Assembly (NCBI GenBank): GCA_029553475.1
Contig: JAKPKV010000164.1
Span: 1 to 43,188 of the forward strand
Source of the DNA: Armatimonadota bacterium
GTDB taxonomy: Bacteria > Armatimonadota > Hebobacteria > CAIYQO01
Length of the DNA: 43,188 nucleotides
Direction: 5' to 3'
In this document: piece by piece, positions 2,597-20,332 of the stretch
How positions within the stretch are numbered: the first letter of the stretch is position 1
Layout: the number at the start of each line of letters is the position of its first letter
Notes under the pieces: generated by a model
What the model was told of the DNA's origin: nothing
The model's input: the letters and a program-made list of their open reading frames with translations, nothing else
The model's database searches: none
Position numbers and translations under genes: made by a program

Positions 2597-2626
2597 GCAG
2601 AAAAGTGGGGGGATCGCCTTGCAGCC

Positions 2627-2762: not shown

Positions 2763-2769
2763 TGGGGCC

Positions 2770-4764: not shown

Positions 4765-4900
4765 GTGGATTCCCCTCCGAGCGCAAAATCGGGAGAGATT
4801 GTAGCACAAATAGGGGCAGCGTGTACCGCCCCTATCGGGATGTGGCAACCCGATAGGGGCGGAAGCGGGGTGGGGCAACGCGTTGCGTGGTGCACACGCG

Positions 4901-5134
4901 CTACGTGGTGAAGATGCAGTCGCACACCACGAGGTTCGGGGCGCCCTGCTGATCCATGAAGATCTGGCGGACCTGCCAGCCGTCCTTTGCCAGCTCATCC
5001 AGCACGTAGGCCAGGCTTTCCAGCACGCGATGCGTCTGACCGGGGTTCGTCATGGTGATGGCCTTGTCCCCGAACCAGACGTTCCAGTTGTTGTGCCCGG
5101 GCGTGAGGAAAGCGTACCGCCTGACTGTCGCCAT
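4901..5134 (-). CDS. Conserved-looking small protein of unknown function
   Basis: A 77-residue protein that I do not recognise. The ATG at 5134 follows AAGGAG with 8 nt spacing, and the frame uses a balanced, protein-like amino-acid set (RRYAFLTPGHNNWNVWFGDK at the start, FMDQQGAPNLVVCDC near the end), unlike the shadow frames here. There is no signal peptide or membrane segment. The mixed alpha/beta pattern could be a small cytosolic fold. It is divergently transcribed from yggS across a 130-bp gap and sits 136 bp upstream of the HyuA-like gene on the same strand. Confidence 0.7.
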   Translation of the reverse strand: MATVRRYAFLTPGHNNWNVWFGDKAITMTNPGQTHRVLESLAYVLDELAKDGWQVRQIFMDQQGAPNLVVCDCIFTT

Positions 5135-5250
5135 GCCACTGCTCCTTCCGATGACCAGAGTGACGGGTGTCGCGAGAACGCATGCGAGCGGCAGCGTGAT
5201 GACCGGCGGCCGTCGCCGACCGGGGCAACCCGCTGCCCGGCAAGTTATGA

Positions 5251-5256
5251 TATACT
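5251..5256 (+). promoter_or_regulatory. -10 box before yggS, probable leaderless start
   Basis: TATACT with 8 nt to the yggS ATG at 5265 and no Shine-Dalgarno between them. TATGAT at 5246-5251 overlaps and is an alternative -10. No strong -35 is visible. Confidence 0.5.
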
Positions 5257-5264
5257 CATTATAC

Positions 5265-6005: not shown

Positions 6006-6096
6006 CGCCACACCGTTCCGCCCCATGCGGAACAGCAGACACAGCCAGACATGACCGTAACGTTTATCGCTCACATCACCGTAAGGAGGACAGGCC

Positions 6097-6615
6097 ATGG
6101 CTTCAGCAGGCCCGTTAACGAAGTTGGTGCGCTGGTTCGGCTTTTACGAGGAGGACGACATGGAGTATGACGAACCGGACACCACGACTCCCCCCCGGGC
6201 GCACGGCACGCCGGCAAAGTCGCGCCGCGGACCGCTGGTACTCCCGGAGCGCGACGCCGTCGCCATGCAGATTCGCCACCCCCGCACGCTGGACGACCGC
6301 ATGCTGGTGGGCATGGATCTGAAACAGCGCCGCACCGTCACGCTGGACCTGACCCGGCTCCCGGACGCCGACGCCCGCTACTTCTTCGAATTCGTGCTGG
6401 GCGTCGTCTACGCGCTGGATGCCACCGCCGAGAAGGTGACGGAGGGCATTTACCTCCTCATCCCGCGCGGCGTCAGTTTCAGCAACGATGTGGAGCATCC
6501 CGCGGAAGAGGCGGCGGCGCCCGCCGCGCCCGCCGCGCGGGCTGCCAGCCGGCCACCGCGCGCCGCCGCGTCCCGCGGCGACGGCCAGGAAGAGCTGTTC
6601 TGGCACGGGGGATGA
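6097..6615 (+). CDS. sepF: Cell division protein SepF
   Basis: A 172-residue cytosolic FtsZ-ring anchor. The N-terminal 15-20 residues (LTKLVRWFGFYEEDD) can form an amphipathic membrane-binding helix. An acidic/Pro-rich linker follows, and then the SepF (DUF552) core at about 48-130 with the MQIRHPRTLDDRM and FEFVLGVVYALD elements. The C-terminus adds an Ala/Pro/Arg-rich low-complexity tail of about 40 residues before EELFWHGG. AAGGAGG lies 9 nt before the ATG. SepF links FtsZ to the membrane in lineages without or in addition to FtsA. Placement between yggS and proC/yggT/divIVA supports the call. ftsZ is not in this window. Confidence 0.93.
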   Translation: MASAGPLTKLVRWFGFYEEDDMEYDEPDTTTPPRAHGTPAKSRRGPLVLPERDAVAMQIRHPRTLDDRMLVGMDLKQRRTVTLDLTRLPDADARYFFEFVLGVVYALDATAEKVTEGIYLLIPRGVSFSNDVEHPAEEAAAPAAPAARAASRPPRAAASRGDGQEELFWHGG

Positions 6616-6702
6616 CCCCGCGCCGGCGTTGACGTGCCCGCGCTCCGGGAGCGTGCTCCGCGTCCGGGGCGTGCCGGCATGGCAGGGAGAAGGGGGTCGG
6701 TC

Positions 6703-7509
6703 ATGCAACTCACCATCATCGGCGTCGGCAAGATGGGGGAAGCCTTGGCGCGCGGCATGCTGCACGCCGAGTTCGTCGCGCCCGGCGAGCTGGTGCTCGC
6801 CGATAGCGCGGTCGAACGGCTGGGCGCCGTCGCGGGGGAGCTGGACGTACGCGTCACCTCGGATAACGCGCTGGCGGCGCGCGACAGCGATGTCGTCATC
6901 CTCGCCGTGAAACCCGCCCTCGTCGCCCCCGTCGCCCGCGAGATCGCCGCCGCGTTGCGTCCCGGCGCCATCGTGCTCAGCATCGCCGCCGGCATCACGC
7001 TGCGGCAGCTCGCGGCGGCGCTCGCCCGCACGGACCTGATCCTCGCCCGCGCCATGCCCAATACGCCGTGCCTCGTCGGGGCGGGCGCTATCGGTCTCAG
7101 TCTGGCGGCGGGCGCGCCCGCGGAGGCCGCGCAGACGGTCTGCCGCCTGCTGTCCGCCGTCGGCCTGGTGGAGTCCGTGCTGGAGGCGCAGCTCGATGCC
7201 GTCACCGGGCTCTCCGGCAGCGGCCCGGCCTATATCGCCGTGCTCATCGAGGCGCTGGCGGACGGCGGCGTGCTCGCCGGGCTGCCGCGCCCGCAGGCCG
7301 AACGGCTGGCCGCGCAAACGGTGCTCGGCACCGCCCGGCTGATTCTGGAGACGGGGCAGCATCCCGCGCAGGTGAAAGACGCCGTCGCCTCGCCGGGCGG
7401 CACCACCATCGCCGGGGTGGCCGCGCTGGAAGCCGGCGGGCTGCGCCACGCCCTCATCGCCGCCGTGCGCGCCGCCGCCGCCCGCGCGCGCGAGCTTTCC
7501 GAGGAGTAA
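6703..7509 (+). CDS. proC: Pyrroline-5-carboxylate reductase
   Basis: A 268-residue cytosolic enzyme that reduces 1-pyrroline-5-carboxylate to proline with NAD(P)H, the last step of proline synthesis. The Rossmann motif IIGVGKMGEALARGM is at the N-terminus. LAVKP, MPNTPCLVGAG, GSGPAYI and the C-terminal SPGGTTIAGVAALE signature are all present. ATG 6703 is chosen over an in-frame ATG 69 nt upstream because it begins the Rossmann strand and follows a purine-rich GGGAGAAGGGGG stretch. The gene lies between sepF and yggT, a common insertion in this division cluster, and the TAA is only 3 nt before yggT, so the two are co-transcribed. Confidence 0.95.
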   Translation: MQLTIIGVGKMGEALARGMLHAEFVAPGELVLADSAVERLGAVAGELDVRVTSDNALAARDSDVVILAVKPALVAPVAREIAAALRPGAIVLSIAAGITLRQLAAALARTDLILARAMPNTPCLVGAGAIGLSLAAGAPAEAAQTVCRLLSAVGLVESVLEAQLDAVTGLSGSGPAYIAVLIEALADGGVLAGLPRPQAERLAAQTVLGTARLILETGQHPAQVKDAVASPGGTTIAGVAALEAGGLRHALIAAVRAAAARARELSEE

Positions 7510-7512
7510 GTC

Positions 7513-7797
7513 ATGGCCTTCCTGCTGATCTATATCCTCAACCTGCTCTATTCCGCGCTGGTGCTGCTCGTCATCGCCGCCGTGGTCATCAGTTGGCTGC
7601 CGCAGGCGCGCTATAGCCCGCTCGGCCAACTTGTCACCCGGCTCACCGAGCCGCTGCTGGAGCCGATCCGGCGCATCATCAAACCGCTGCGCGTGGGCCG
7701 CGGCGGTCGGCTGGATCTGTCGCCGATGGTGCTCCTCCTGCTGGCCTGGCTGCTGTATCAACTCATCGTGAACGTGGTCTTCCGCGTGCTGGGGTAA
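7513..7797 (+). CDS. yggT: YggT family integral membrane protein
   Basis: A 94-residue membrane protein with two hydrophobic segments (about 3-27 and 72-92) around a conserved soluble stretch with the family signature TEPLLEPIRRIIKP. AGGAG overlaps the proC end and lies 7 nt before the ATG. YggT proteins are linked to membrane/osmotic stress and to division-site and thylakoid or nucleoid organisation in the organisms studied; the molecular role is not settled. Operon position between proC and divIVA matches many Terrabacteria. Confidence 0.9.
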   Translation: MAFLLIYILNLLYSALVLLVIAAVVISWLPQARYSPLGQLVTRLTEPLLEPIRRIIKPLRVGRGGRLDLSPMVLLLLAWLLYQLIVNVVFRVLG

Positions 7798-7869
7798 TAC
7801 GCCGGATGGGCGATTTTTCCGACAGGGGTGCGCCCCCGTCGCCGGGTATCTTCGGAATACAGGTGCGTT

Positions 7870-8352
7870 ATGGCAGAACTGACACCCAACGATATCGTCA
7901 ACAAGCAATTTCGCCACACGCTGCGCGGCTACGCGCAGGACGAGGTGGACGAATTCCTGCAGCAGGCCGCGGAGGCGCTGTATCAGGCGCTGGAGGACGC
8001 CCTGCGCCTGCGCCAGCAGCTCAGCGAGCTGCGCGCGCGGCTGGAGCAGTACGAGGGGACGGAGAACCTGATCAAAAGCGCGCTGGTGATGGCGGAGCGC
8101 ACGGCCGAGGACGTGCGGACGGCGGCGCACCGCGAGGCGGAGTTGATCCGCCGCGAGGCCGAGGAGCGCACGCGGGAGGAGCGCGCCGCGACCGAAGAGC
8201 TGCGGCAACTGCGGCTGCGCGTCATGAGCGAGCTGCACGCCATGCTCACCGCCCACCTGAACCTGCTGGAATCGCAGGCGTCGCGCTTCGCCCCCGCGCC
8301 CCCGCCCGCTCCCGAGACGCGCGCCGAGGGGGGGACCCGGCATGACGTATGA
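7870..8352 (+). CDS. divIVA: DivIVA/GpsB family coiled-coil protein
   Basis: A 160-residue protein whose first 35 residues match the DivIVA lipid-binding head (LTPNDIVNKQFRHTLRGYAQDEVDEFL). A long Glu/Arg/Ala coiled coil runs through to about residue 145, and a Pro-rich tail ends the protein. DivIVA-type proteins sense negative membrane curvature at septa and poles and recruit division or growth factors. ATG 7870 begins the conserved head; AGGTG upstream is a modest ribosome-binding site. The last 11 nt overlap the start of the downstream protease gene, which implies translational coupling. Confidence 0.92.
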   Translation: MAELTPNDIVNKQFRHTLRGYAQDEVDEFLQQAAEALYQALEDALRLRQQLSELRARLEQYEGTENLIKSALVMAERTAEDVRTAAHREAELIRREAEERTREERAATEELRQLRLRVMSELHAMLTAHLNLLESQASRFAPAPPPAPETRAEGGTRHDV

Positions 8353-9796
8353 GGGGGCGCCGTCGCCGGAGCCGCGCGTCGCGCCCGCCGCCGAGCGCGA
8401 GCCGCCGCTGCTCCTCGCGCTCGGCATCCTCTGTTACCTCGGCGTGCTGGCGGTGATGTGGGGCAGCGCCGCGCTGCCCGGCGAGGATCGGCCCACCCCC
8501 GTCGCCACGGAGGGGGCGCGCGCCGCCACCTACCTGGCGACGGCCGCGTGGTACGCGGAGCGCTTCAGCGACTGGCCGGCGGAGATCCGCCAGGCCGTGC
8601 GCCCGGCGGAACACGCCGACACCGCCGCCCGGGCCTGGGAGACGGTCGCCGCACAGACGCCCGTGGCCGCGCAGCGCGCGCGCGCGGAGGCCAATGCCGC
8701 CATCCTCCACAGCCTGGGCGGCGACCGGCGGGGCGCGCTCGTATTGCTGGATCGCGCGGGGCGGCATGACCCGGCGATGGCCGGCGCGTATGGCCGGCTG
8801 CGCGCTTTCTACGCCGACCCCGCGCGGCCGGCGGCGTTGACCCCCGCGGCGGAGGCGCTGCTGGAGAAGCTGCCAACCGGCCCGATCTTCCGCGCGCAGG
8901 CGGCGCGGCGGGCGGGGGATATCGCCGCGGCGCGGGCGGCGCTGCGGCCGGGGTGGGAGGCCGGCCTCCGGGTGCTGCTCGTGGAAGGCCTGGTGGTGCT
9001 GCTCATCGGCGGGCTGCTGCTGTTCGCGCTCTTCGGCTACCTGCTCTGGCATCGCCGCATCGGCGCTGAGCTGCGCGCGGCCGCGGCGCCCGCGCCCCCC
9101 GTGCCCTGGGGCATCGGCGCCGCGCTGCTGGTCGTCAGCGGCGTCTATCTCTTGAGTTTCCTGCTGCAGGTGGGCCTCGCGGGGTTCATCCCGCGCGCGT
9201 CATTGGCGGCGGCGGCGCCGGTGGTGGGCACGCTGGCGCTGCTGGTGGCGACGCTGCTCGTCGCCGGCGGTTTCCTTTCGCTGCTGGGCAAGCCCGCCTG
9301 GGCGTGGGAGACCTTCGGCTGGCGGCGGGCGCCGCGCGGCGCCGGCTACGGGCTGCTCGCGCTCGTGCTGGCGCTGCCGCTGTTGGTGATCGCCTACCTC
9401 ATCGCCGCCGCGCTGTTTGGCATGGACCGCCAGCAGCAGCCGCTGGTCGAGGCGCTGCAATCCGGCGGGCCGCTGCTGCAGGTGTATCTGGTAGTCGTGG
9501 CGGCGGTGATGGCTCCGCTGGTGGAGGAAACGCTCTTTCGCGGGCTGCTCTTTCGCGCGCTCAACGCGCGGCTGGCCTTCTGGCCGGCGGCACTGATCAG
9601 CGCGCTCCTCTTCGCCGCCGGGCACGCGCTGCTCCTCGCGCTGCTGCCGGTGATGCTGCTGGGGATGCTGTTCGCATTTCTCACCCGCCGCGCGGGCAGC
9701 GTTGTGCCGTCCGCGGCGGCGCATGGGGTGTATAATCTGGTCGTCAGCGTGGTCGCGCTGCTCATCGGCTGGGCGTTGAACGGCCCTGGCCAATGA
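8342..9796 (+). CDS. CPBP-family intramembrane metalloprotease with N-terminal helical domain
   Basis: A 484-residue polytopic membrane protein. A first hydrophobic segment lies near residues 20-40. Residues about 50-210 are Ala/Arg-rich helices, possibly TPR-like, and face one side of the membrane. After a segment near 220 comes a bundle of seven or so helices carrying the CPBP (Abi/CAAX protease) motifs: EETLFRGLLFR (about 394-404) with the Glu-Glu pair and Arg, a His in GHALLL (about 424) and HGVYN (about 460). These are the catalytic and metal-binding residues of the family. Its start overlaps divIVA, so it is in the division operon. Substrate unknown; a link to cell-envelope protein processing is only inferred from position. 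Confidence 0.88.
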   Translation: MTYEGAPSPEPRVAPAAEREPPLLLALGILCYLGVLAVMWGSAALPGEDRPTPVATEGARAATYLATAAWYAERFSDWPAEIRQAVRPAEHADTAARAWETVAAQTPVAAQRARAEANAAILHSLGGDRRGALVLLDRAGRHDPAMAGAYGRLRAFYADPARPAALTPAAEALLEKLPTGPIFRAQAARRAGDIAAARAALRPGWEAGLRVLLVEGLVVLLIGGLLLFALFGYLLWHRRIGAELRAAAAPAPPVPWGIGAALLVVSGVYLLSFLLQVGLAGFIPRASLAAAAPVVGTLALLVATLLVAGGFLSLLGKPAWAWETFGWRRAPRGAGYGLLALVLALPLLVIAYLIAAALFGMDRQQQPLVEALQSGGPLLQVYLVVVAAVMAPLVEETLFRGLLFRALNARLAFWPAALISALLFAAGHALLLALLPVMLLGMLFAFLTRRAGSVVPSAAAHGVYNLVVSVVALLIGWALNGPGQ

Positions 9797-9864
9797 CGGC
9801 GGAACGCGGCACACCCGCGGGCGGGCGCCCAACCCGGCGGGGATGACGAGGGGGCGCGCCGGGT

Positions 9865-11088
9865 ATGGACAAGATGCGTGACATGCTAACAGCGGAACCC
9901 GACAACACGGTGGACGCGCGCCCGCGTCCGGTGCGCGTGCTCTTTGCCGGCGGCGGCACCGGGGGACATCTCTCCCCGGCGCTGGCCATCGCGCAGACGC
10001 TGCGCGCGCGCGACGCGGACGCGGAGATCCTCTTCATCGGCACCGCCGATCGCCTGGAGGCGACGAAGGTGCCGGCGGCGGGGTTCGCCTTTCGCGCCAT
10101 TTCCGTGCACGGGCTGGCGGGACGCTGGACGGTGGGTGGGCTGCTCAAGCGCCTGCGCGCGGTGTTGGAGATCGGCACCGGCCTGCCGATCTGGCAGGCG
10201 ATGTTCATCGTGGATGACTTTCAGCCGGACGTGGTTATCGGCACCGGCGGATACGTCTGCGGGCCGGTGCTGGCGGCGGCGAAGCTCATGCGCCGGCCGG
10301 CGATGCTGGTAGAGCAGAACGAGGAGATCGGCAATACCAGCAAGTGGTCCGCCTGCTGCATCAGCCTGGCGGCGGTGATTTCCGAACAATCCGGCGCCTA
10401 TTTTCGCGCCCGCGGCATCCGCACGGAAGTGGTGGGCAATCCGGTGCGCCCGGCCATCCTCACCGCCACGCGCGAGGCGGGCGTCGCCGCGCTGGGGCTG
10501 GAGGCCGACCGGCTGACGCTGGCGGTGATGGGCGGCAGCCTGGGCAGCTCGCCGATCAATGACGCGCTGGCGGGGACGCTGCGCGGGCTGGCGGGCGAAA
10601 AGTGGTTCCGCGACGGCTGGCAGGTGGTCCACCTCACCGGCCCGGCCCGCGGGGGCGGGCTGACGGAAGAGGAGGCGCGGGCGCTGGGGATCACCTACGC
10701 CGCGCTGCCGTTCCTCGACAATATGCATGATCTGCTCGCCGCCAGCGACGTCGTCGTCACCCGCGGCGGCGGCACCACGCTGGCGGAAGTGGCCGCGCGC
10801 GGCATCCCCATGGTCATCGTCCCCTGGGCGGGGGCGGCGAATGACCATCAGACGCGCAATGCCCGGCCCTTCGCCGACACGCAGGCCGCCGCCGTCATCG
10901 CCGACGCCGAGCTCTCCGCCGAGACGCTGCTCGCCGCGCTCCACCAAATTCTCCCCGATCCCGCCACGCGCCAGGCCATGGCCAACGCCTGCCGGAGTCT
11001 CGGCCGCCCGGAATCCGCCGCGGAAATCGTGGATTTCATCGAAGAGCTGGCGCGCCCCCGCCAGCGGTCGGTGAAGAGCGTCGGGTAA
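9865..11088 (+). CDS. murG: MurG-family UDP-GlcNAc transferase (lipid II synthase)
   Basis: A 407-residue GT-B glycosyltransferase expected to add GlcNAc from UDP-GlcNAc to lipid I on the inner face of the membrane. The N-terminal loop GGGTGGHLSPALAIA, HGLAGRW, DVVIGTGGYVCGPV, the acceptor-side LVEQNEEIGNTSKW, the second glycine loop MGGSLGSSPIND and the nucleotide-binding stretch VVTRGGGTTLAEVAARGIP...NDHQTRNA match MurG in order. The usual RAGA motif is RGGG here, and the protein is somewhat longer than typical MurG (about 360), with an N-terminal extension of some 25 residues. It follows the sepF-divIVA cluster; no other mur gene is present, so a MurG paralogue cannot be ruled out. The ribosome-binding site is weak. 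Confidence 0.85.
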   Translation: MDKMRDMLTAEPDNTVDARPRPVRVLFAGGGTGGHLSPALAIAQTLRARDADAEILFIGTADRLEATKVPAAGFAFRAISVHGLAGRWTVGGLLKRLRAVLEIGTGLPIWQAMFIVDDFQPDVVIGTGGYVCGPVLAAAKLMRRPAMLVEQNEEIGNTSKWSACCISLAAVISEQSGAYFRARGIRTEVVGNPVRPAILTATREAGVAALGLEADRLTLAVMGGSLGSSPINDALAGTLRGLAGEKWFRDGWQVVHLTGPARGGGLTEEEARALGITYAALPFLDNMHDLLAASDVVVTRGGGTTLAEVAARGIPMVIVPWAGAANDHQTRNARPFADTQAAAVIADAELSAETLLAALHQILPDPATRQAMANACRSLGRPESAAEIVDFIEELARPRQRSVKSVG

Positions 11089-11089
11089 A

Positions 11090-11219
11090 TATGCCGGCGG
11101 GCGCGACGGAGTCTCGCCTTCCAGGAAGGTGAAGAGGTGAGGTGACGCGCGAAAGGCATGGGGAAGAGCGTGGACGGTCCCTCCGCGCGCGGCTCGACGG
11201 AGTCTCGCCCGCCGGCATA
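11090..11219. repeat. Interspersed repeat with 14-bp terminal inverted repeats (family B, copy 1)
   Basis: The ends TATGCCGGCGGGCG (11090-11103) and CGCCCGCCGGCATA (11206-11219) are exact inverted repeats. Inside, CGACGGAGTCTCGCC occurs twice in direct orientation near each end, and the middle holds GCGAAAGGCATGGGGAAGAG. A second copy with the same core is at 28410-28563. It occupies most of the space between murG and the next gene. Confidence 0.8.
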
Positions 11220-11272
11220 TACACATACAGCGGCGTGGCCGACTGTGCGCTCCCGCAATCGCGAAATTGCGC

Positions 11273-11278
11273 TATAAT
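11273..11278 (+). promoter_or_regulatory. -10 box, probable leaderless start
   Basis: TATAAT with 9 nt to the ATG at 11288 and no ribosome-binding site between them. Confidence 0.5.
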
Positions 11279-11287
11279 ATCACCGAT

Positions 11288-12160
11288 ATGACTGTCTGCC
11301 GTCTCTGCTGGCTGGTGCTGCTCGCGGGGTTGGCGCTCGGCGCGGCGGCGCAGCCGGCGGTGGATGAAACCTGGCTGGTGATCGTGCCGGCGCTGGCGGA
11401 CGGCGGCGAGTTGCCCGGGCGCGCGGGCGCGCGGCTGGAGCGCGTGGAGGGCGAGAAACGCGTGGCGGTGTCAGCGCGCCCCTCCTTCACGCCGGATGGC
11501 CGCGTCGTCTTCATGCATCTCGCCCCCGGCGACTATGACGTGACGCTGTATTTTCCCACGCTCGGCCTCAGCGCGGCGCCGCGCCGCGTCACGGTGCGGA
11601 CGGGGTATAACGTCTGCCCCGTGACGCTGCCGCCGATCACCCTGGCGCGGCTCACGCTGACCGTCGAGGGCACGGCGGTGACGGCGGCGGAGGCGCAGCT
11701 ATTTCTGCTGACCGCGGCCGGCGACCGGCTGTCCCCCCCGTCGGCGGCGGAGGAGGGGGGGCCGCGCATCGCCCTCTTCCCCGGCGTCTATCGCCTGGCG
11801 CTCTTCACCGAACACGGCTACGCCATCACCGAGCTGAACACGGCGGAGGCGAAGAACGGCACGCTGCCGGTATCGCTGGCGCTGCGGCGCGGCGGCGCGG
11901 CGCGCGTGCTGGTGACGAATACCAGCGAAAAAGCGATTCCCGGCGCGCAGGTGACCTTCTCGCGCACCATCGCCCCCGGCTTTCCGGTGCGCTTCACCGT
12001 GCTGCTGCGCGATCCCGAGCCGCAGCGCACCCCCATGCTGCCCCCCGGCGAATGGACGTGGAAAGCGGCGCGCACGGGCTATCGGCCGCAAAGCGATGTC
12101 GTGACCCTCTCCGCCGAGGAAGACGCGGAGCTGACCATCGAGCTGCTGCGCGCGCGATAA
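11288..12160 (+). CDS. Secreted protein with carboxypeptidase-regulatory/Cna-B-like beta domains
   Basis: A 290-residue protein with a clear signal peptide (CRLCWLVLLAGLALGAAAQ), probably cleaved after Ala-Ala-Gln or lipid-modified upstream at a Cys. The mature part alternates short beta-strand motifs such as FMHLAPGDYDVTLYFP, IALFPGVYRLALFTEHGY and PPGEWTWKAARTGYRPQS, the pattern of repeated prealbumin-like (carboxypeptidase regulatory) domains, about three copies. Such domains act as structural or ligand-binding modules at the cell surface; no catalytic motif is seen. The ATG at 11288 starts the signal peptide and lies 9 nt after TATAAT; an in-frame ATG 21 nt earlier would overlap the -10 box and is rejected. 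Its stop marks the left edge of the AT-rich island. Confidence 0.72.
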   Translation: MTVCRLCWLVLLAGLALGAAAQPAVDETWLVIVPALADGGELPGRAGARLERVEGEKRVAVSARPSFTPDGRVVFMHLAPGDYDVTLYFPTLGLSAAPRRVTVRTGYNVCPVTLPPITLARLTLTVEGTAVTAAEAQLFLLTAAGDRLSPPSAAEEGGPRIALFPGVYRLALFTEHGYAITELNTAEAKNGTLPVSLALRRGGAARVLVTNTSEKAIPGAQVTFSRTIAPGFPVRFTVLLRDPEPQRTPMLPPGEWTWKAARTGYRPQSDVVTLSAEEDAELTIELLRAR

Positions 12161-12182
12161 TGTTGAATAAGTTCAGAGATCG

Positions 12183-12263
12183 TTAAGCACTGTGCTTTAC
12201 GGTATAGTTATCGATATCTTATAAAGTCTCACTAGCACTCAGTAATATTGTCAACTTAGACAA
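12183..12263 (+). promoter_or_regulatory. Candidate promoter/operator region of the cassette
   Basis: Two small perfect palindromes lie in the AT-rich leader: AAGCAC-T-GTGCTT at 12185-12197 and TTGTC-N6-GACAA at 12248-12263. Between them TTTACG (12196-12201) and TATAAA (12220-12225) are spaced by 18 nt and could form a sigma-70-type promoter. The first palindrome overlaps the -35 and the second lies just after the expected start point, positions suited to repressor binding. AT-rich DNA gives such matches easily, so this is tentative. Confidence 0.3.
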
Positions 12264-12352
12264 CATAATGAAAATTTAATGTTATGAATCGCAGGATGGC
12301 ATGAATATGTTGTATGCTTGAATCAATGTTATTGAAATAAAGGTGATACTTC

Positions 12353-13279
12353 ATGATGACATATGAATGGGAGCGATATATTGGAAGAGTTGTTTCCGGT
12401 CGTTACACTTTAAAGAGTTTTATTGGTGGTGGCGGGTTCGGTGGTGTTTTTTTTGCTGATGAAAAGCAGGCAGATAACCTGCTTCGTTCAGTAGCAATTA
12501 AGCTTTTCGTACCTGATCATAGAGTCGATACTGCTAGGCAACTCGATGAAATTAAGATTAATTACCTGTTAGACCATCCTCATATTCTACGTTCGTATAC
12601 AAGTGGCGAAGAAACTATCGATAGTATATCATATTATTATTTAGTAATGGAGGTGGCTGAAGCTAGCTTGGATACTATTTTATCGAATAAACAGATGGTA
12701 ATGAATGAAATAGAAGAATTAATCCTCCATGTTGCAAGTGCTCTTCACTATATACATAATCAAGAAACCCCGATTACGCACCGTGATATAAAACCAGGGA
12801 ACATACTTCTTAAAGATAGGCAATGGAAAATCTCTGACTTCGGCATTTCGAGAAAGATTGAAAAGAGCGATTACATAAATAGTCGTGTTATGGGTTCATT
12901 TCTGTATATGCCACCCGAGGGATTTAAAGGGATAATTAGTCCTTACTGGGATGTATGGTCATTTGGCGTGTTAATACAGTATATAATAACAGGAAAATAC
13001 CCGTATGATGACGAACTACCAGTTGAGCGATATATATATAATATAATGAACTGTGATCCGTATATTAGTGACCAATTGCCATGCCAGTATAGAAATATTG
13101 TTGAGGGATGTTTGCGCAAGGAAATGCGCGAAAGAATATCTATGAAAGATATACTGCAGATATTAAATCTGGAGTGCATTATAGCACCCGAAGGGTCAAC
13201 TACGCACACTGGAAGAAAATATATTCAACGGTTACACCAGATACCTTCTGATGTGCGAAGGTACTATGATAGACAGTAA
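12353..13279 (+). CDS. Serine/threonine protein kinase (Hanks type), cytosolic
   Basis: A 308-residue eukaryotic-like protein kinase with every catalytic landmark: Gly-rich loop IGGGGFGGVFF (24-34), VAIK Lys50, the helix-C Glu in DEIKIN (66), HRDIKPGN with catalytic Asp145 and Asn150, DFG (162-164), GSFLYMPPE (181-189) and DVWSFGVL (200-207). It should therefore be active. There is no transmembrane helix or sensor domain: after the kinase fold only about 40 residues follow, ending in a basic GRKYIQRLHQIPSDVRRYYDRQ-like helix. AAAGGTGA provides a ribosome-binding site; ATG 12353 or the next codon (ATG 12356) may start. It is the first gene of the three-gene AT-rich cassette, 9 nt before the AAA+ gene. 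The likely substrates are the two other cassette proteins or a host target; this is inference. Confidence 0.92.
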   Translation: MMTYEWERYIGRVVSGRYTLKSFIGGGGFGGVFFADEKQADNLLRSVAIKLFVPDHRVDTARQLDEIKINYLLDHPHILRSYTSGEETIDSISYYYLVMEVAEASLDTILSNKQMVMNEIEELILHVASALHYIHNQETPITHRDIKPGNILLKDRQWKISDFGISRKIEKSDYINSRVMGSFLYMPPEGFKGIISPYWDVWSFGVLIQYIITGKYPYDDELPVERYIYNIMNCDPYISDQLPCQYRNIVEGCLRKEMRERISMKDILQILNLECIIAPEGSTTHTGRKYIQRLHQIPSDVRRYYDRQ

Positions 13280-13288
13280 AGGATGAAT

Positions 13289-14128
13289 ATGCATAATGTT
13301 TTTATTTCTGATAGATTTCGCTCGGTGATTGTTATTCATATTCTTCAGAATATGTTATTGAGCAAGCCAATCCGTCCACCGCTACTACTTGGAATCCATG
13401 GCCCTTCAGGGTCAGGGAAAACATTTCAATGCGAGATAGTGTTGCAAGAAATGGGTATCCACGTAGTCACAATTTCCGGTGGTCAACTGGAAAGTGATAA
13501 GGCCGGTGAACCTGCGAAGATCATTCGTGATAAATATATTATTGCTAGTAATGCTATTGAAGATCATAAATCAAACATGACCGCGATTGTTATAAATGAT
13601 TTTGATGCGGGTGCCGGTGACTGGGGACCAATGGTTCAATATACTGTTAACAGGCAACAATTATACGCAGAGTTGATGCATTTGGTCGATTTCCCGCACT
13701 GCGTAGACGGTGTTAAAACGCATCGTATTCCGATAATACTTACCGGTAATAACTTTTTGACATTATATAAGCCATTAATACGTACTGGTAGAATGTGGTT
13801 GTTTGAATGGGTGCAAAATAGTAGTGAAGTTATAAACGTTATTCAGCCATTATATCCATGGTTGAATGAAGCTGAATTAAAGGAATTGGTGGGGTGTTTC
13901 CCTGGAGAACAGGTGGCTTTCTTTTGTGAGCTTAAAACAAGAATATACCATTCATATATTTTGGAGTTAGCAACTCATGTTGGGATAGGTGCGGTTGTTG
14001 AGTGCGTACGAAAAGGTGCGACAATTGAATCATTGGATAACTCACCATTACCATATATAATATCGATTGGCAAACGATTGCAAGCGGAAAGGTGCGTTGG
14101 AAATCATTTGGCCTGCGAGGAGATGTGA
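13289..14128 (+). CDS. Rubisco-activase-like AAA+ ATPase
   Basis: A 279-residue AAA+ protein that aligns by eye, as I remember the sequence, with plant/algal Rubisco activase (RCA) over nearly its full length. In order: GIHGPSGSGKTFQCE (Walker A 38-45), SGGQLES (63-69), AGEPAKIIRDKY (72-83), VINDFDAGAG (Walker B 101-110, with the Asn-Asp pair of RCA in place of Asp-Glu), QYTVNRQQ, RIPIILTGNNFLTLYKPLIRTGRM (sensor 1 and arginine fingers, about 146-169), FPGEQVAFFCELKTRIY and a C-terminal PYIISIGKRLQAE. The N-terminal Rubisco-binding extension of RCA is missing; only about 30 residues precede the ATPase core. RCA remodels Rubisco to release inhibitory sugar phosphates, but no Rubisco gene is here, so its client is probably another protein. 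AAAGG with 6-nt spacing favours ATG 13289 over ATG 13283. It overlaps no gene but lies 1 nt before the next start. Confidence 0.88.
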   Translation: MHNVFISDRFRSVIVIHILQNMLLSKPIRPPLLLGIHGPSGSGKTFQCEIVLQEMGIHVVTISGGQLESDKAGEPAKIIRDKYIIASNAIEDHKSNMTAIVINDFDAGAGDWGPMVQYTVNRQQLYAELMHLVDFPHCVDGVKTHRIPIILTGNNFLTLYKPLIRTGRMWLFEWVQNSSEVINVIQPLYPWLNEAELKELVGCFPGEQVAFFCELKTRIYHSYILELATHVGIGAVVECVRKGATIESLDNSPLPYIISIGKRLQAERCVGNHLACEEM

Positions 14129-14129
14129 C

Positions 14130-14660
14130 ATGGCCCAAACGTATACCTCAACAGTGACAAAAACATTCACACGGGTGGAATTAATACTTATACAAATCAG
14201 AAAAGTGTTGAAATATTGTGGGATTAGTGATGTTAAAATACGCGACATATTTGACAGGGGAATCCGTGAAAAGTGGTTTGAAGAGATTAGTTTGTATGGA
14301 ATTGATAATAACGAAATGTGTCGTGCGCAGATAATAATGCGAATAGACTGGGCAACAAACCGATTTCACATTATTGAAGGAAGAGAGATTGTTGTGGCAG
14401 ACAGAAGATGGACCGATGACGTTGCGTATGAAATAGATCAAATACTCGACCTCTTCTGCAGTTATATAAACGATAAATGCTTAAGCATTCGATGGACAGT
14501 TACATATTCAACAGGAGTGAATGTTGAATATGTAAGAAAAGAACTAGGTTTAAAACCTGCTGATCCCATTGAGTGGTACGGAGAGGCGGAAGAGGAATAT
14601 TTGACAGTGCACGGACTTGATGAATTGAAAATTGGATGTAAAATTGTATGTGATGAGTGA
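14130..14660 (+). CDS. Unknown protein, possibly a divergent bacterial HORMA-like domain
   Basis: A 176-residue soluble alpha/beta protein. ATG 14130 lies 1 nt after the AAA+ stop and 7 nt after an AGGAG site, so it is translationally coupled. The N-terminus (QTYTSTVTKTFTRVELILIQIRK split as strand then helix, 3-25), the following helix (ISDVKIRDIFDRGIRE), the beta section around IIMRIDW (68-74), RRWTDD (92-97) and the C-terminal WTVTYS (122-127) and KELGLKP (137-143) recall the layout of bacterial HORMA proteins found with TRIP13-like AAA+ ATPases in CBASS systems. That resemblance is from memory and weak. An AAA+ client or adaptor role would fit its position after an RCA-like remodeller. 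No catalytic motif, membrane segment or signal peptide is visible. Confidence 0.8.
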   Translation: MAQTYTSTVTKTFTRVELILIQIRKVLKYCGISDVKIRDIFDRGIREKWFEEISLYGIDNNEMCRAQIIMRIDWATNRFHIIEGREIVVADRRWTDDVAYEIDQILDLFCSYINDKCLSIRWTVTYSTGVNVEYVRKELGLKPADPIEWYGEAEEEYLTVHGLDELKIGCKIVCDE

Positions 14661-14707
14661 AGTCTAAGTTGCATACATGAATACAATAGTTGAACTGTAA
14701 CTTGATT

Positions 14708-14800
14708 TGTTACTACCACGGCAGTGGTAAGGTTGTATCTTCTTTAGTTCGCGCTTCAAGGGAAGCGAGATACAATCTTACCACTGCCGGAGTAGTAACA
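14708..14800. repeat. 93-bp hairpin with 33-nt arms
   Basis: Arms 14708-14740 and 14768-14800 are reverse complements with three differences, one of which is a G-T wobble. The ends read TGTTACTAC and GTAGTAACA. The 27-nt loop holds a second small stem (CGCTTC-AAGG-GAAGCG). It lies between the cassette and the transposase remnant. It may be a miniature inverted-repeat element, two abutted IS ends, or a terminator/regulatory RNA for the cassette. Confidence 0.8.
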
Positions 14801-14840
14801 TAGATGGTATATCGTATAAACTGTCTTCTAAACCACCTTT

Positions 14841-14865
14841 CCTTGCTACACTACTCAGCAAGGAG
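14841..14865 (+). promoter_or_regulatory. Hairpin covering the transposase ribosome-binding site
   Basis: CCTTGCT (14841-14847) can pair with AGCAAGG (14857-14863). The second half contains most of the AAGGAG site (14860-14865) that precedes the transposase ATG at 14873, so the stem would mask it. Insertion sequences often limit transposase translation this way; here it is inference from the sequence. Confidence 0.45.
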
Positions 14866-14872
14866 AAGACCA

Positions 14873-15555
14873 ATGGATGCCCACACCAAAGTCGCTCGGC
14901 AGCGCTTGAGCGTGCTGCAACTGGCGGAAGAGCTCGGCAACGCCGCTGAAGCCTGCCGCCGTCGTGGCATGGACCGCACCAGCTTCTACGAGTGGAAGCG
15001 GCGCTTCGCAACTCAGGGCTTCGAAGGGCTGAAGGACTTGCCGCCCATCGCCAAGTCTCACCCGTTCACCACGCCGCCCGAGACGGTGGAGCGCCTCAAA
15101 GCGCTAGCGCTCGCCCATCCCGCCTTCGGCTGTAACCGCCTGGAGCACTTGCTCGCCCTGGAGGGGCCGCGGGTCTCCACAATGACGTGCTGCCTTTCTA
15201 TGTCGAGCAGGGTCTGCCGATCCAGGCAGTGCTGACCGACAACGGGCGGGAGTTCTGCGGGACAGACCGGCATCCCTACGAGCTCTATCTGGCCCTCAAT
15301 GACCTGGAGCACCGGACCCCCCGCGTCCGGCGCCCCCAGACGAACGGGTTTGTCGAACGGTTCCACCGCACGGTGCAGGAGGAGTTTTTCGCGCTGATGC
15401 TCCGCGAGAAACTCTACGAAAGCGTCGAGAGCCTGCAGGCTGATCTCGACGCTTGGCTGCACCACTACAACTACGAACGCCCCCATCAGGGGTATCGAAA
15501 TCTGGGCCGTCGTCCGTGGGAGACGGTGTCACAATTTGTCAGGGAAGGTGCTTAA
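14873..15555 (+). pseudogene. Decayed IS481-family transposase (internal deletion and frame shift)
   Basis: Codons from 14873 (AAGGAG upstream) give an N-terminal helix-turn-helix of IS481 type (LQLAEELGNAAEACRRRGM, FYEWKRRF, and GCNRLEHLLALEGPRVS) for about 103 residues. Near 15180 the frame is lost. From about 15183, in another frame, the C-terminal part of the integrase core resumes: VLTDNGREFCG with the second catalytic Asp, and TNGFVERFHRTVQEEFF with the catalytic Glu, ending ERPHQGYRNLGRRPWE. The region with the first catalytic Asp is deleted, so no active enzyme can be made. Intact relatives are about 350 residues; about 225 remain. IS termini could not be assigned with confidence. Confidence 0.9.
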
Positions 15556-15618
15556 GAGTACATATTAAAGAAATGGAATACGAAAGCAGAACGCTTCGGA
15601 AAACAGTGCTGCGAATAG

Positions 15619-17007
15619 TTACGTACCTCGATACCGCACCACCACCAGCGTCTGGTCGTCGCGCCGGGCGGCGCCCTGGATGTAAGTGTTCACCGCGTCG
15701 AAGATGTTGTCCGCGATCGCCTGGGCGGACAGGTCAATGCCCACGCCGGCGCGCGCGCGGGCGATGAGGCTGTCATCGCCGAATTCCACCCCCAGCGCGC
15801 TGCGCGCTTCGGTGATGCCGTCGGTATAGAGGCACAGCGTGTCGCCGGGTTCCAGCGTCTGCGCGCCCGTGGGGTAGGCGGCGTGGGCATCCACGCCCAG
15901 CACCAGGCCGCCGGCGTCCAGCGGCACGATCTCGTTGCCCCGCGCGCGAATCAGCAGCGGGGGGTCCTGTCCGCCGTTGGCATAGGCGAAGCGCGCGCGC
16001 GCCGGGTCCAGCACCATCACGCAGGCGGAGATGAACATGTCCGGCTGCAGCAGCGGATAGACGATGCGGTTCACCTGTGAGAGGATGGCGCCGGGATCGT
16101 CCCACACCTGCGCGCAGGCGACGAACGCCGACTTGAAAATCGGCAGCTTGATGGCGCCGCGCATGTGCTTGCCCGACACGTCCGCGATGGTGAGCACCAC
16201 CCGCCCGTCCTCCAGCGGGATGACATCGTAAAAGTCGCCGCCGCCCTCCTGCAGCACCGGGCGCCACCGCGCCCCCACCTCGATGCCGGTGAGGGTGGGG
16301 GTGGCCGTCGGCAGCAGCAGGTCATAGACTTCCTGCGCGGCGCGGAACCGCTCCTGGTACTGCGCCAGCAGCACCTGCGAGCGCGTCCACATCTCCCGCT
16401 CGCGTTTGTGGGTATCCACCAGGTAGCCGGTGACGATGGCGACCAGGAACAGGTAAATGCCGTTGCGATACAGCGCCTCGACGATATCGGTGACGTTGTA
16501 ATTGCTGCCGAGGTAGATCAGGCCCAGGTAGAGGCAGAGGATGAGGATCGCCGAGCCTAAGGCGCCCGCCACGCCGAACCAGAGCGCGTTCGTGATGATT
16601 AAGACGAAGTAGAAGGGGAATAGAATCGAGCCGTTGCCATGCAGGCCGGTTTGCCAGGTGGCGTAGACCCACACGGTGACGAGCAGGATGTCGAGGATCG
16701 CCATGACGTGGCGCAGGCCGCGCGGGCGCCAGCGCAGCCAGTGGAGGAGGAACACCAGGCCGGTGTAGGCCACGGCGAAGACGATGGAGAGCTGGAAGAT
16801 GCCGGAGAGGAGTTGGGTGTGGTGGTCCCCGAGCTCCTGCGGCAGGAGAAAATTCGTGAAGGCGGCCAGCATGGTCAGCGCGGCGCGCAGGATGGCGACG
16901 ATCAGCTCGGACTCCTGCTGCAGGCTGATGGTCGTGGCGCGCGGGGGCGCCGCCGGCGTGGCCGGCGCGGAGGCGCGCGCTGTTTTGGGTGCCTGCGTGA
17001 TCGGCAT
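15619..17007 (-). CDS. Membrane SpoIIE/RsbU-type PP2C serine phosphatase
   Basis: A 462-residue protein with a Pro/Ala-rich N-terminus, about six transmembrane helices between residues 35 and 205, a short linker (THKREREMWTRSQVLLAQYQERF) and a C-terminal PP2C-like phosphatase domain (about 235-460). Phosphatase motifs are GGGDFYDV (metal-binding Asp), LTIADVSGKHMRGA, FAYANGGQDPPLL, LCLYTDGITEAR and RRDDQTLVVVRY. Such proteins dephosphorylate anti-sigma-antagonist (STAS) proteins in stress partner-switch systems; none is adjacent here. GGGAGG lies just before the ATG. The TAA stop is the right edge of the AT-rich island. It is compositionally a host gene and is not considered part of the kinase cassette, although a kinase now lies nearby. 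Confidence 0.9.
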   Translation of the reverse strand: MPITQAPKTARASAPATPAAPPRATTISLQQESELIVAILRAALTMLAAFTNFLLPQELGDHHTQLLSGIFQLSIVFAVAYTGLVFLLHWLRWRPRGLRHVMAILDILLVTVWVYATWQTGLHGNGSILFPFYFVLIITNALWFGVAGALGSAILILCLYLGLIYLGSNYNVTDIVEALYRNGIYLFLVAIVTGYLVDTHKREREMWTRSQVLLAQYQERFRAAQEVYDLLLPTATPTLTGIEVGARWRPVLQEGGGDFYDVIPLEDGRVVLTIADVSGKHMRGAIKLPIFKSAFVACAQVWDDPGAILSQVNRIVYPLLQPDMFISACVMVLDPARARFAYANGGQDPPLLIRARGNEIVPLDAGGLVLGVDAHAAYPTGAQTLEPGDTLCLYTDGITEARSALGVEFGDDSLIARARAGVGIDLSAQAIADNIFDAVNTYIQGAARRDDQTLVVVRYRGT

Positions 17008-17082
17008 AGCCCTCCCGTGTCCGCGGCGCCGGCGGCAGGCGGCGCGGAAAAACCCCTCGGCGCGCGGCGCGCGCGTGAAGGC

Positions 17083-17111
17083 TTTCGTGCGTCCACGGGG
17101 AATAGTATAAT
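17083..17111 (+). promoter_or_regulatory. Sigma-70-type promoter before the oxidoreductase gamma subunit
   Basis: TTTCGT (17083-17088), 17-nt spacer, TATAAT (17106-17111). The transcript would start about 17118 and give a short leader with a GGAG ribosome-binding site 6 nt before ATG 17147. Confidence 0.55.
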
Positions 17112-17146
17112 CGTGAATGACGGAAATGCCTACTACGGAGAAACGT

Positions 17147-17722
17147 ATGTCTGAACATCACGTCCCCGCATCGCTGCATCACGAGGTGATTATCGCCGGT
17201 TTTGGCGGCCAGGGCGTGCTGACCCTGGGGTCCACGCTGGCGGAGGCGGCGGTGCTGGACGGGCGCGAGGTCGTGTGGACGCCGGCGTACGGCGCGGAGA
17301 TGCGCGGCGGGCCCGCCTTCTGCACGGTGATCGTCTCCTCCGCGCCCATCGGGTCGCCGGTGGTGGCCACCGCGGATACCGCCATCGTCATGGACCGGCT
17401 GTCGCTGCCGAAATACCAGCGGCAGGTGCGCCCCGACGGCGCGCTGCTGGTGAACAGCTCGCTGGTAGACACGGCGGAGATCGCCGTCGCCGCGCGCTGG
17501 TACGCCATCCGCGCCAATCACTTGGCGGAAGCGCTGGGCGACGCGCGCACCGCCAACATGGTGATGCTCGGCGCCTTCCTGGCGCTCACGCGCCTGGTGC
17601 GCGCGGCGGCCGTGGTGGACGCGCTGCGCCATATCCTCCCCGCGCGGCGGCATCACCTGATCCCGCTGAACGAGGCCGCGCTGGCCGCCGGCGCCCGCGC
17701 GCTGACCGCGCCGGCGGCGTGA
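17147..17722 (+). CDS. 2-oxoacid:acceptor oxidoreductase, gamma subunit
   Basis: A 191-residue cytosolic subunit of ferredoxin-dependent 2-oxoacid oxidoreductases (pyruvate, 2-oxoglutarate or branched-chain type). Signature motifs: IIAGFGGQGVLTLGSTLAEA, YGAEMRGGPAFCTVIVS, ADTAIVMDRLSLPKY, and ANMVMLGAFLAL. This domain helps bridge the TPP-containing and CoA-binding subunits. The alpha, beta and ferredoxin-like subunits normally lie directly upstream in an operon, but here the neighbours are a convergent or divergent phosphatase and a TolB-like gene, so this is a solitary gamma gene with its own promoter. ATG 17147 is chosen by the GGAG site; in-frame ATGs at 17117 and 17126 overlap the promoter start region. 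Confidence 0.88.
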   Translation: MSEHHVPASLHHEVIIAGFGGQGVLTLGSTLAEAAVLDGREVVWTPAYGAEMRGGPAFCTVIVSSAPIGSPVVATADTAIVMDRLSLPKYQRQVRPDGALLVNSSLVDTAEIAVAARWYAIRANHLAEALGDARTANMVMLGAFLALTRLVRAAAVVDALRHILPARRHHLIPLNEAALAAGARALTAPAA

Positions 17723-17860
17723 GCGCGGCCATCTGGTGGCGATGCGAACCGCCGCATGATTGCGCAGTGGAACAATCCTTCATATAATAGGTCTAATCCC
17801 ATAGCGGCGCCGCCGGCGCCGCGGCAATCGTTTGCCGGTGATACCGTGTAGGAGGGTGAT

Positions 17861-20332
17861 ATGCGACACACCGCGGTCAGATGGGCGTTGGTCGGCGGGC
17901 TGGTGATGCTGGCGCTGTCTCTGCCGGCCCAGGACACGAAAGACCGCGTGGCCATTCAGCGCCAGGTCCACCCCACCGCCCCGACGAACATCCTCATCCT
18001 GTTCAGCGATGGCAAACAGCCGCAGGACCTGCCGGTGCGTGGTGACACGCCGGTACCGCGCGTCACGCCCGCCCTTTCGCCCGATGGCCGCACGCTGGCG
18101 TATAGTGAAAAGGTCGGCGAGCAGTTCAAACTCTTCACCTGGGAGCTGGACGCGCAGAATCTGCCGGTGGGCGAGCCGAAGGCGCTCACCGCCAATGCCG
18201 ACACCACGGACAAGTTCCCGTCCTGGTCGCCGGACGGCCGGCAGCTCGCCTACCTGGCCACCGCCGCCGACGGCACCACCACCCTGCGCGCCATCACCCG
18301 CGACGGCACCGGCATGCGCACGCTGGCTGAGACGCGCTATACGTCCACGCCCTCCTGGCACGCCGACGGGAAGGGGCTCCTCTACATTGACCTGGAGGAA
18401 GGCGACGACGGCAAGCGCGTTCCCACGCTGAAAAGCGTGATGATGGACGGCAACATGCCGCTGCCCATCCGGCCCGGCATGCGCATCATCGCCGCCAGTC
18501 AGGCGCCGCCCGCCGCGAAGGACAACGTGAGCATCGCCGTGCTGACGCAGAGCGCCAACGGCCTCTGCGATCTCCATATCATCAAGCCGTTCGTCATGGA
18601 GACGAGGCGGATCGCCGCGCAAATCGCCGGCGCGAAAAGCGTCGTCTGGGTGAGCCCCGACTTGGTCGCCTTCACCGCCACCAAGGTCGGCACCCAGGAG
18701 AAAGCCATCTGGCTGGTGAACCCGGAGGGCGGCGCCGCGCCCCGCCCGCTGGAGAAGGTGCCGGTCAATCCGAAGCTGGTCGCCTGGCTCTCCATGCGGA
18801 CGGCGAATCTCGCCGCGAATCTGCCGGATCCGGTGGACCCCGGCGCCCCCGCCGGTCCCAATGGGACGAAGCCGGGCGAGCCGCTGGCCACCGGCCCGGT
18901 GACGGTGATGCGCCCGCTGGCCGAGGCCACCCTCCGCGGCATCGTCCCGGTGAAGGTCTACACTCAGCCGAAGGTGACCAGCGTGGTGCTGCGCATCAAC
19001 GATCAGTTCATCTTCGCCGCCGCGCCGCAGGCCGACGACACGGAGCCCGCGCCCTACGTGCGCTTCGAGTGGAATACCCAGCAGACGGTGAGCGACGAGC
19101 TGCTGCGCGCCGAGTTCGAAGCGGCGGAGAAGGACAGGCGATCCATCAAATACGGGAACGTGCTGCGCTTCCCCGACGGCGCCTATACCATCACCGCGTA
19201 TGGGATGGATGTCAACAATAAGCTGGTCGGCGGCTACCAGGTGAAGGTGACGGTGCAGAATACCCTGGCGGGCAATGAGTTTCCCGCCGAGAACACCGTG
19301 CTCGCCTACAAGGGACGCGACGATGTCTACGCGCTGCACGGCGCAGCCACCCTCTTCGGCGCCAGCCCCGGCCAGGCGCCGGAGTTGAACGCCACCCTCG
19401 ACCTGACCATCCGCCGCGTGCTCATTGACGCCCGCGATACCGCCTATGACCTGCGCACCGAGGTGCGCCCGCCGCGCAGCGGCTTCCCGCTGAATTACGG
19501 CTTGAAAGAGGCGATCATCCCCGAGACCGGCGCCAGCGCGCTCTATTCCTTCACCCGCGAAGGCTACGTCAGCGTGGTGGAGCAGTTGCGCGAGAAGATT
19601 TACCTGCCGCTCTCCGCGTTGAGCACGCCGCTGCCGCCCAATATCGCCATCACCCGCGCCTCGACCTGGTCGCGGGCGATGAACGTGGTGGCGGACCTGC
19701 TCAATCGCGACAATACCATGGTGCAGGCGAATCACGCCGTGGACGGGGTGGAATGGATGGACGGCAAGCGGACGATTCGCATCCGCTCCGATTATAAACT
19801 CGACCAGCGCTGGACCCCGTACCCGCTGCTGCCGAACACGCCCACGCGTACCACGCCGCAGGAGCGCGCCATCCGCGGCGAGCTGCTGAAGAAAGCCACC
19901 CAGCCCACGCTGGCACCCGGCGCCAATCCGGGGATGACCGCGCCCGCCGGCACCGGCGTGACGCAGGACGTTGGCGGCGGCATCAAATTTACCGGCTGTA
20001 CGGGCATCCGCTTCAGTTGGTTCGATTATCAGGCCAACGCGCTGGTGCGGGTGGACGATTATATCCTTTACAGCTTCCCCGTCACCCATTTGCCCACCGG
20101 GGCCGGCGGCACGGGCGTGTCGCCGGGCATGACCACGCCCCCGCCGCCGGGCGCGCCGGGCAATAATCCGTTCGGCGCCGCGCCGGCCGCCAATCCGTTC
20201 GGCGGCGCCACCGCGCCGGCCAACAATCCCCCCGGTAGGGGCACCCAGCCCGCCCGCCCCGCCGCCCCGCCGGAGGTCGGCACCGCCTACTACCTGGTGC
20301 GCATGACGTACCAGGCGGTGACGGAAGAATAA
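17861..20332 (+). CDS. Large secreted TolB/WD40-like beta-propeller protein
   Basis: An 823-residue exported protein. An N-terminal signal peptide (WALVGGLVMLALSLPAQ) is followed by PD40/TolB-type repeats: PALSPDGRTLAYSEK, FPSWSPDGRQLAYLAT, TPSWHADGKGLLYID, which suggest a partial or divergent propeller in residues 60-320. The middle (about 350-640) is a mixed beta region I do not recognise, with an Ig-like stretch (TLRGIVPVKVYTQPKVTSV). Residues 720-805 are rich in Gly, Pro, Asn and Ala (for example NNPFGAAPAANPFGG), a typical extracellular linker, and the end returns to a strand (YYLVRMTYQAVTEE). AGGAGGGT before the ATG is a strong ribosome-binding site. A perfect terminator follows. Function unknown; envelope location inferred. 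Confidence 0.82.
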   Translation: MRHTAVRWALVGGLVMLALSLPAQDTKDRVAIQRQVHPTAPTNILILFSDGKQPQDLPVRGDTPVPRVTPALSPDGRTLAYSEKVGEQFKLFTWELDAQNLPVGEPKALTANADTTDKFPSWSPDGRQLAYLATAADGTTTLRAITRDGTGMRTLAETRYTSTPSWHADGKGLLYIDLEEGDDGKRVPTLKSVMMDGNMPLPIRPGMRIIAASQAPPAAKDNVSIAVLTQSANGLCDLHIIKPFVMETRRIAAQIAGAKSVVWVSPDLVAFTATKVGTQEKAIWLVNPEGGAAPRPLEKVPVNPKLVAWLSMRTANLAANLPDPVDPGAPAGPNGTKPGEPLATGPVTVMRPLAEATLRGIVPVKVYTQPKVTSVVLRINDQFIFAAAPQADDTEPAPYVRFEWNTQQTVSDELLRAEFEAAEKDRRSIKYGNVLRFPDGAYTITAYGMDVNNKLVGGYQVKVTVQNTLAGNEFPAENTVLAYKGRDDVYALHGAATLFGASPGQAPELNATLDLTIRRVLIDARDTAYDLRTEVRPPRSGFPLNYGLKEAIIPETGASALYSFTREGYVSVVEQLREKIYLPLSALSTPLPPNIAITRASTWSRAMNVVADLLNRDNTMVQANHAVDGVEWMDGKRTIRIRSDYKLDQRWTPYPLLPNTPTRTTPQERAIRGELLKKATQPTLAPGANPGMTAPAGTGVTQDVGGGIKFTGCTGIRFSWFDYQANALVRVDDYILYSFPVTHLPTGAGGTGVSPGMTTPPPPGAPGNNPFGAAPAANPFGGATAPANNPPGRGTQPARPAAPPEVGTAYYLVRMTYQAVTEE

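Follow-up and report, generated by a model that had tools for sequence, protein, structure and literature searches.

Rubisco activase (Rca) is known as a carbon-fixation specialist that remodels inhibited Rubisco by ATP-driven action. That a gene for an Rca-like AAA+ protein lies between a protein kinase gene and the gene of a small novel protein in an Armatimonadota bacterium raises the question of what such an ATPase could be doing there, and whether the three genes act together. Here, we have analysed a 43,188-nt stretch of DNA from this bacterium (the window), in which the cassette is made up as follows:

12353-13279, + strand: Ser/Thr kinase gene, 308 aa, Pkinase 5.6e-43; it occupies slot 1, the position before the ATPase
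13283-14128, + strand: Rubisco-activase-like AAA+ gene, 281 aa, phmmer 1.1e-53 to 6z1d
14130-14660, + strand: partner (third) gene, 176 aa from the ATG, possibly HORMA-like; an upstream TTG is a possible alternative start

The original prediction described three AT-rich genes packed with gaps of 1-9 nt into one unit of a GC-rich genome, on an island with a transposase remnant. The reading frames, the common strand and the tight packing are confirmed, and the real gaps are slightly tighter than proposed, with 3 nt between the kinase and the AAA+ and 1 nt between the AAA+ and the third gene. The three genes have a GC content of 38-40% (GC3 33-35%), compared with 67-71% (GC3 89-91%) in the flanking murG, 297-aa and SpoIIE-type genes and ~68% in the host genome. 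A promoter and terminator scan gave scores no better than shuffles. A 10-nt inverted repeat (CAACTTAGAC / GTCTAAGTTG) at 12252-12261 and 14662-14671 surrounds the three-gene operon and could be due to chance.

That the island is a true insertion was shown by comparison with a genome of the same genus (G190). The island and its surroundings have these features:

12160-15625, no strand: inserted island (cassette and IS remnant), from blastn against G190
11267-12160, + strand: left native flank, a 297-aa gene intact to its stop codon
15619-17007, - strand: right native flank, a SpoIIE-type PP2C gene whose protein is 91% identical in G190
14873-15555, + strand: degenerate IS transposase, with an HTH part at 14873-15235 and an out-of-frame rve_3 integrase core at 15187-15555
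14708-14800, no strand: near-perfect 33-nt inverted repeat with a 27-nt loop, located past the cassette and ahead of the IS remnant

Window positions 9001-12159 and 15626-18000 align by blastn to positions 8008-4982 and 4956-2557, respectively, of the same G190 contig (C477, L150), so that an insert of 3,466 bp stands where G190 has 25 bp. The 297-aa gene on the left is contiguous with murG in G190 (identity 81-85%), and at the right junction the SpoIIE-type phosphatase gene has its final few codons replaced relative to G190. The host assembly consists of 194 contigs (completeness 99.5%, contamination about 4%), and the insert is assigned to the host genome because native flanks are present on both sides. 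The predicted transposase remnant is real: it matches HTH_28/HTH_32, weakly LZ_Tnp_IS481, and rve_3 at 7e-16, the two parts lying in different frames with no single intact ORF. The inverted repeat folds into a strong hairpin (-60.7 kcal/mol) and may be a terminator or an IS/MITE end. In the other 290 genomes of the phylum we found no homologue of the AAA+, the weak matches there being generic AAA domains; the cassette is therefore not core, and the finding of core chromosomal genes in relatives, which the original prediction had held against itself, did not materialise. Together these results support the view that the three genes were horizontally acquired as one unit.

The proposed resemblance of the second gene to Rca is borne out by searches against solved structures. 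The three best matches are Rubisco activases (1.1e-53, 1.3e-51 and 1.8e-51), the best being Nostoc Rca (6z1d); Cdc48/Afg2-type ATPases follow at only 6e-9, and no TRIP13 chain is found among the 60 matches listed. The core is 42-43% identical to Rca (6z1d, 3t15, 4w5w; 43% to 6z1d) and keeps the P-loop/Walker motifs, INDxDAGAG, QYTVN, TGN, and the sensor and LIRxGRM arginine blocks. In the 99.5% complete host genome we found neither a RuBisCO large subunit nor a Rubisco-like protein (PF00016), the same search matching in five control genomes. The two Chloroflexota genomes with the next-best AAA+ homologues also lack Rubisco, while two cyanobacterial controls have it. The ATPases whose gene lies next to a partner gene, which we call module ATPases, have 278-316 aa, versus typically 405-460 aa for ordinary cyanobacterial Rca ORFs with their SSU-like tail, and the window AAA+ lacks this C-terminal extension. 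In a FastTree analysis of 33 sequences, a long branch separates ordinary Rca from a single group (support 0.999) that takes in both the module ATPases and those of Chloroflexota, relations within that group being poorly resolved. Judged from its sequence, the AAA+ is thus a member of a sister lineage of Rca, outside the ordinary Rca clade.

In the Rubisco-less Chloroflexota, the Rca-like AAA+ genes stand alone (L007 1159-2073, L008 7968-8882), with a 3-oxoacyl/HMG-CoA-synthase-like gene and an amino-acid ABC transporter as syntenic neighbours in both genomes. Among 400 sampled Chloroflexota genomes, one had such a lone gene, which implies a client independent of Rubisco; its shared metabolic and transport neighbours suggest a non-defence role there. 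The scans for homologues covered samples of genomes. A first contig scan with the single AAA+ protein gave no matches, and a second, based on the motifs GKxFQCE and INDxDAG, returned mostly ordinary Rca; as most module ATPases lack these motifs and would be missed, absence from the motif scan is not evidence.

If the ATPase acts on something other than Rubisco, its neighbours may tell on what. An Rca-like AAA+ gene followed directly by the partner gene occurs in five independent places: the window, L133, L135/L136 (near-identical, counted once), L121 and the prophage L123, of which L133, L135/L136 and L121 represent three cyanobacterial lineages. The prophage, recovered by a viral-contig scan, has a three-gene cassette that encodes first a 181-aa protein, then an Rca-like AAA+ (33% identical) and last a 174-aa protein. 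This last one scores 25.3 bits (E 6e-6) against the partner family; 10,000 shuffles reached 7.6 bits at most. The prophage cassette is AT-rich (39-44% vs about 60%) and runs in the opposite direction to the terminase and portal genes. Searched against plasmids, phages and viral contigs, the window proteins gave no relatives other than this prophage. As a control, none of 78 ordinary cyanobacterial Rca loci (L009-L086) has a partner-like ORF. The third gene is thus a conserved neighbour of the AAA+ homologues; the original prediction would have been undermined by their having none. Of the expected co-occurrence, the third gene was found with the AAA+ elsewhere, but the kinase was not found with the pair again. 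Since the pair recurs while the upstream gene, fusions and neighbours vary, we take the real unit to be the Rca-like AAA+ and its partner, and it is very likely that these two form the constant part of the module.

The gene in slot 1 is what varies. It is the kinase in the window and none at L121; at L135/L136 it is a protein of 214 aa that combines a hydrophobic N-terminus with a charged coil, at L123 the 181-aa protein, with a hydrophobic segment, and at L133 a Zn-ribbon coiled coil. The kinase, which had been taken for a member of a conserved set, is carried by one of the five pairs; as other loci fill the slot otherwise, the combination of kinase, AAA+ and small protein is one version of the module, and it is gene order alone that points to the kinase as a regulated output. 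Slot 1 is physically linked to the partner, because the N-terminus of the L135-type slot-1 protein is fused to a partner domain at two loci, L134 (E 4e-12) and L137 (E 5e-25):

L134 6933-7730: fused partner gene with hydrophobic and coil N-terminus
L137 7308-7997: fused partner gene with hydrophobic and coil N-terminus, frame-shifted copy

A divergent NB-ARC/STAND gene, homologous from locus to locus, lies beside the partner at L122, L134, L135/136 and L137 (four loci, five genomes), those next to the L134 and L137 fusions being of a divergent HTH/NB-ARC type. At the cyanobacterial locus L133, positions 2612-8192 carry genes for an Hsp70-like protein, a coiled-coil protein, a radical-SAM activase (Fer4_12) and a Zn-ribbon coiled coil ahead of the Rca-like AAA+ and the partner, a run that may be an extended form of the module. 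The slot-1 proteins of the window, L123, L133 and L135, otherwise unrelated, share a short charged helix at the C-terminus (e.g. ERIDQRNSGED, EARIREQGDI), which is possibly a recognition tail.

The kinase itself is as predicted, with its catalytic residues in place and neither sensor nor membrane domain. It has the Gly-rich loop, VAIK, HRD, DFG and PPE (in place of APE) motifs and a 38-aa tail; we found no domain beyond Pkinase and no strongly hydrophobic segment. It matches the PADLOC Mad6 and PD-T4-6 profiles over the generic kinase domain only, and scores 98.9 bits against the NCBIfam MAD6 model, whose cut-off is 460; any Hanks-type kinase would give such matches. Its lowest-E plasmid relatives come from the cyanobacterium Pseudanabaena (3e-31, 35% identity), consistent with an origin of cyanobacterial type.

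The third protein had been called novel, and it is: no Pfam, NCBIfam, PHROGs or PADLOC family matches it above cut-off. A search of 339 cyanobacterial-phylum genomes turned up two clear homologues (2.4e-14 and 1.6e-12), and five others (5e-49 to 6e-22) were recovered when a three-sequence profile was run on 332 genomes of one order. Conserved blocks in the family are a T-rich N-terminus (FTxTxTFTR), SIYGxD...C...L...DW, a W-D-acidic helix and a C-terminal GL-EL-I. From this sequence conservation, the third protein is the founder of an unnamed family coupled to the Rca-like AAA+; at L122, L134 and L137 partner genes occur with no AAA+ nearby. DUF7664 was considered as its identity (E 0.023 in Pfam, 0.05 in its own genome) and rejected, since four other genomes of the phylum match at E 0.06-0.09 and the match is therefore at chance level. 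AF2 models of the protein have pLDDT 42 (single-sequence) and 37 (two-sequence) and are not interpretable, and a VIA-align search with the first of them gave unrelated weak matches (Z <5), with no HORMA chain among the matches listed.

We argue that the partner is probably the client of the AAA+. Driven by ATP, the AAA+ ring would pull on or reshape either the partner alone or a complex of partner and output protein, and this remodelling would keep the partner or complex off or reset it, as Rca does with Rubisco and Pch2/TRIP13 with HORMA proteins. The partner would hold or sense a ligand and license the output protein, which in the window would be the soluble Ser/Thr kinase, phosphorylating targets in the cell once released, and elsewhere a membrane or coiled-coil protein. 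What the data show directly is gene coupling, fusion and homology, and from there on remodelling, gating and defence are inferred. A new, mobile and probably defence-related switch is suggested because the same ATPase-partner pair adjoins other genes in cyanobacteria and in a prophage, and insertion, carriage by a prophage and STAND NTPase neighbours would fit conflict or defence better than housekeeping. We favour, tentatively and with slightly less than even confidence, the reading of the cassette as a mobile switch reset by an AAA+ of Rca or Pch2/TRIP13-like mode, with a variable output and probably acting in conflict or defence. The lone Chloroflexota AAA+ genes and the partner genes without an AAA+ at L122, L134 and L137 count against this reading.

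A rival reading concerns the nature of the partner. It could be a divergent HORMA protein that folds shut around a peptide from the output protein, with the Rca-like AAA+ replacing TRIP13 and the kinase replacing the CD-NTase of type III CBASS, in which pairing of AAA+ and HORMA is the known logic. Profiles of the partner family score 21.0 (seven members) and 21.8 (eight members) against bacHORMA_1, a level reached by none of 200 column shuffles (mean 12, sd ~2), and the order of helices and strands looks similar by eye. However, the hhalign probability for this comparison is only 2-3%, the score against bacHORMA_2 was reached by 27 of 100 shuffles with the seven-member profile (5 of 100 in a further comparison), Pfam bacHORMA_1 and bacHORMA_2 have no match in the host, the AF2 models lack confidence, and the idea started from the look of the N-terminal sequence pattern of the partner. 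As a candidate for the closest relative, bacHORMA_2 looked good by eye but was rejected: P0003 was ranked second among 4,200, behind a shuffle, and of its three closest relatives tested two gave no signal. The likeness of the partner to bacterial HORMA proteins is no more than suggestive, and we treat a HORMA identity as a lead that is less likely than not. A type III CBASS with bacHORMA_1 was seen on a Nostoc plasmid (L095 5944-7739), and a Haloarcula plasmid (L098 3045-5501) has a HORMA-like gene close to an AAA gene, with no annotated CD-NTase.

Other explanations do without a switch. The ATPase could be a housekeeping repair chaperone whose target is some metabolic enzyme besides Rubisco, which it would remodel or free of inhibitors; the partner would be a substrate adaptor and the kinase a passenger or regulator acquired in the course of transfer. 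Rca itself works in this way, and the Chloroflexota single genes of the same clade do sit beside the synthase-like gene and the transporter; but the pair has no common metabolic neighbour across the window, the three cyanobacterial lineages and the prophage, and it is found at insertion or prophage sites, often near STAND NTPases, which makes this explanation unlikely. It is more improbable still that the cassette is a plain acquired operon, an AT-rich fragment of cyanobacterial type in which a kinase happens to lie beside an unrelated AAA+-partner pair. Such a fragment would account for the absence of the kinase from the pair elsewhere, for its Pseudanabaena matches and for a GC content like that of the cyanobacterial loci (38-46%), but not readily for gaps of 3 and 1 nt, for GC and GC3 values matched in all three genes, or for a different upstream gene coupled equally tightly at three other loci.

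A Rubisco-free sister lineage with its own partner and a swapped output would mean that the remodelling engine serves clients besides Rubisco, and the cassette gives a handle on the origin of Rca. As a defence switch, it would be an Rca-type counterpart of the Pch2/TRIP13-HORMA logic, and a concrete family of partner proteins would be named that lies outside current database models. More speculatively, there may be a class of undescribed mobile conflict modules in which a Rubisco-free Rca branch resets a dedicated, possibly HORMA-like sensor or switch controlling interchangeable outputs (kinase, membrane protein and others). In that case the Rubisco-activase lineage would have a function, and perhaps its original one, beyond carbon fixation. 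We regard the module as a variant of AAA+-switch modules; it would be categorically new if the partner is not a HORMA protein and defence is shown.

In line with the original prediction, we found no described system with this set of genes. The partner has no entry in PADLOC, NCBIfam, PHROGs or Pfam, no PADLOC family recognises the AAA+, and our literature search gave nothing relevant that connects Rubisco activase with HORMA, NB-ARC or phage defence. AAA+/STAND conflict systems of multicellular bacteria, with kinases among their effectors, have been described (Kaur et al. 2020, PMC7159879), in a text from which the words 'Rubisco' and 'activase' are absent. NB-ARC/STAND NTPases beside the cyanobacterial partner genes recall these systems, whereas the window has no STAND gene. 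With Stk2, PD-T4-6 and Mad6 of MADS, the window has in common that an acquired island carries a soluble Ser/Thr kinase whose catalytic motifs are present. In contrast, those systems lack the AAA+ and the partner, the profile matches span the generic kinase domain only, and the other genes of MADS (mad1-8) are absent beside the window kinase. IetAS (an AAA+ with a subtilisin-like protease) offers an AAA+ as regulator of its partner; the similarity is weak and confined to the AAA domain, with marginal matches (0.012, 0.0028), and the window has no protease. Type III CBASS (CD-NTase, HORMA, TRIP13-like AAA+ and effector) is similar in its tight operon, in having an AAA+ beside a ~170-aa partner, in its variable output gene and in its mobility, including on plasmids. 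It differs in that no CD-NTase or other nucleotidyltransferase is among the three window genes, that the window AAA+ is of Rca type rather than TRIP13, and that the partner is HORMA-like only as a candidate. Rca itself is the relative whose core, with its Walker, QYTVN, sensor and LIRxGRM elements, the window AAA+ has kept at 42-43% identity, but the window protein stands apart from it on a long separate branch, without the SSU-like extension, in a host without Rubisco and coupled to a partner of its own.
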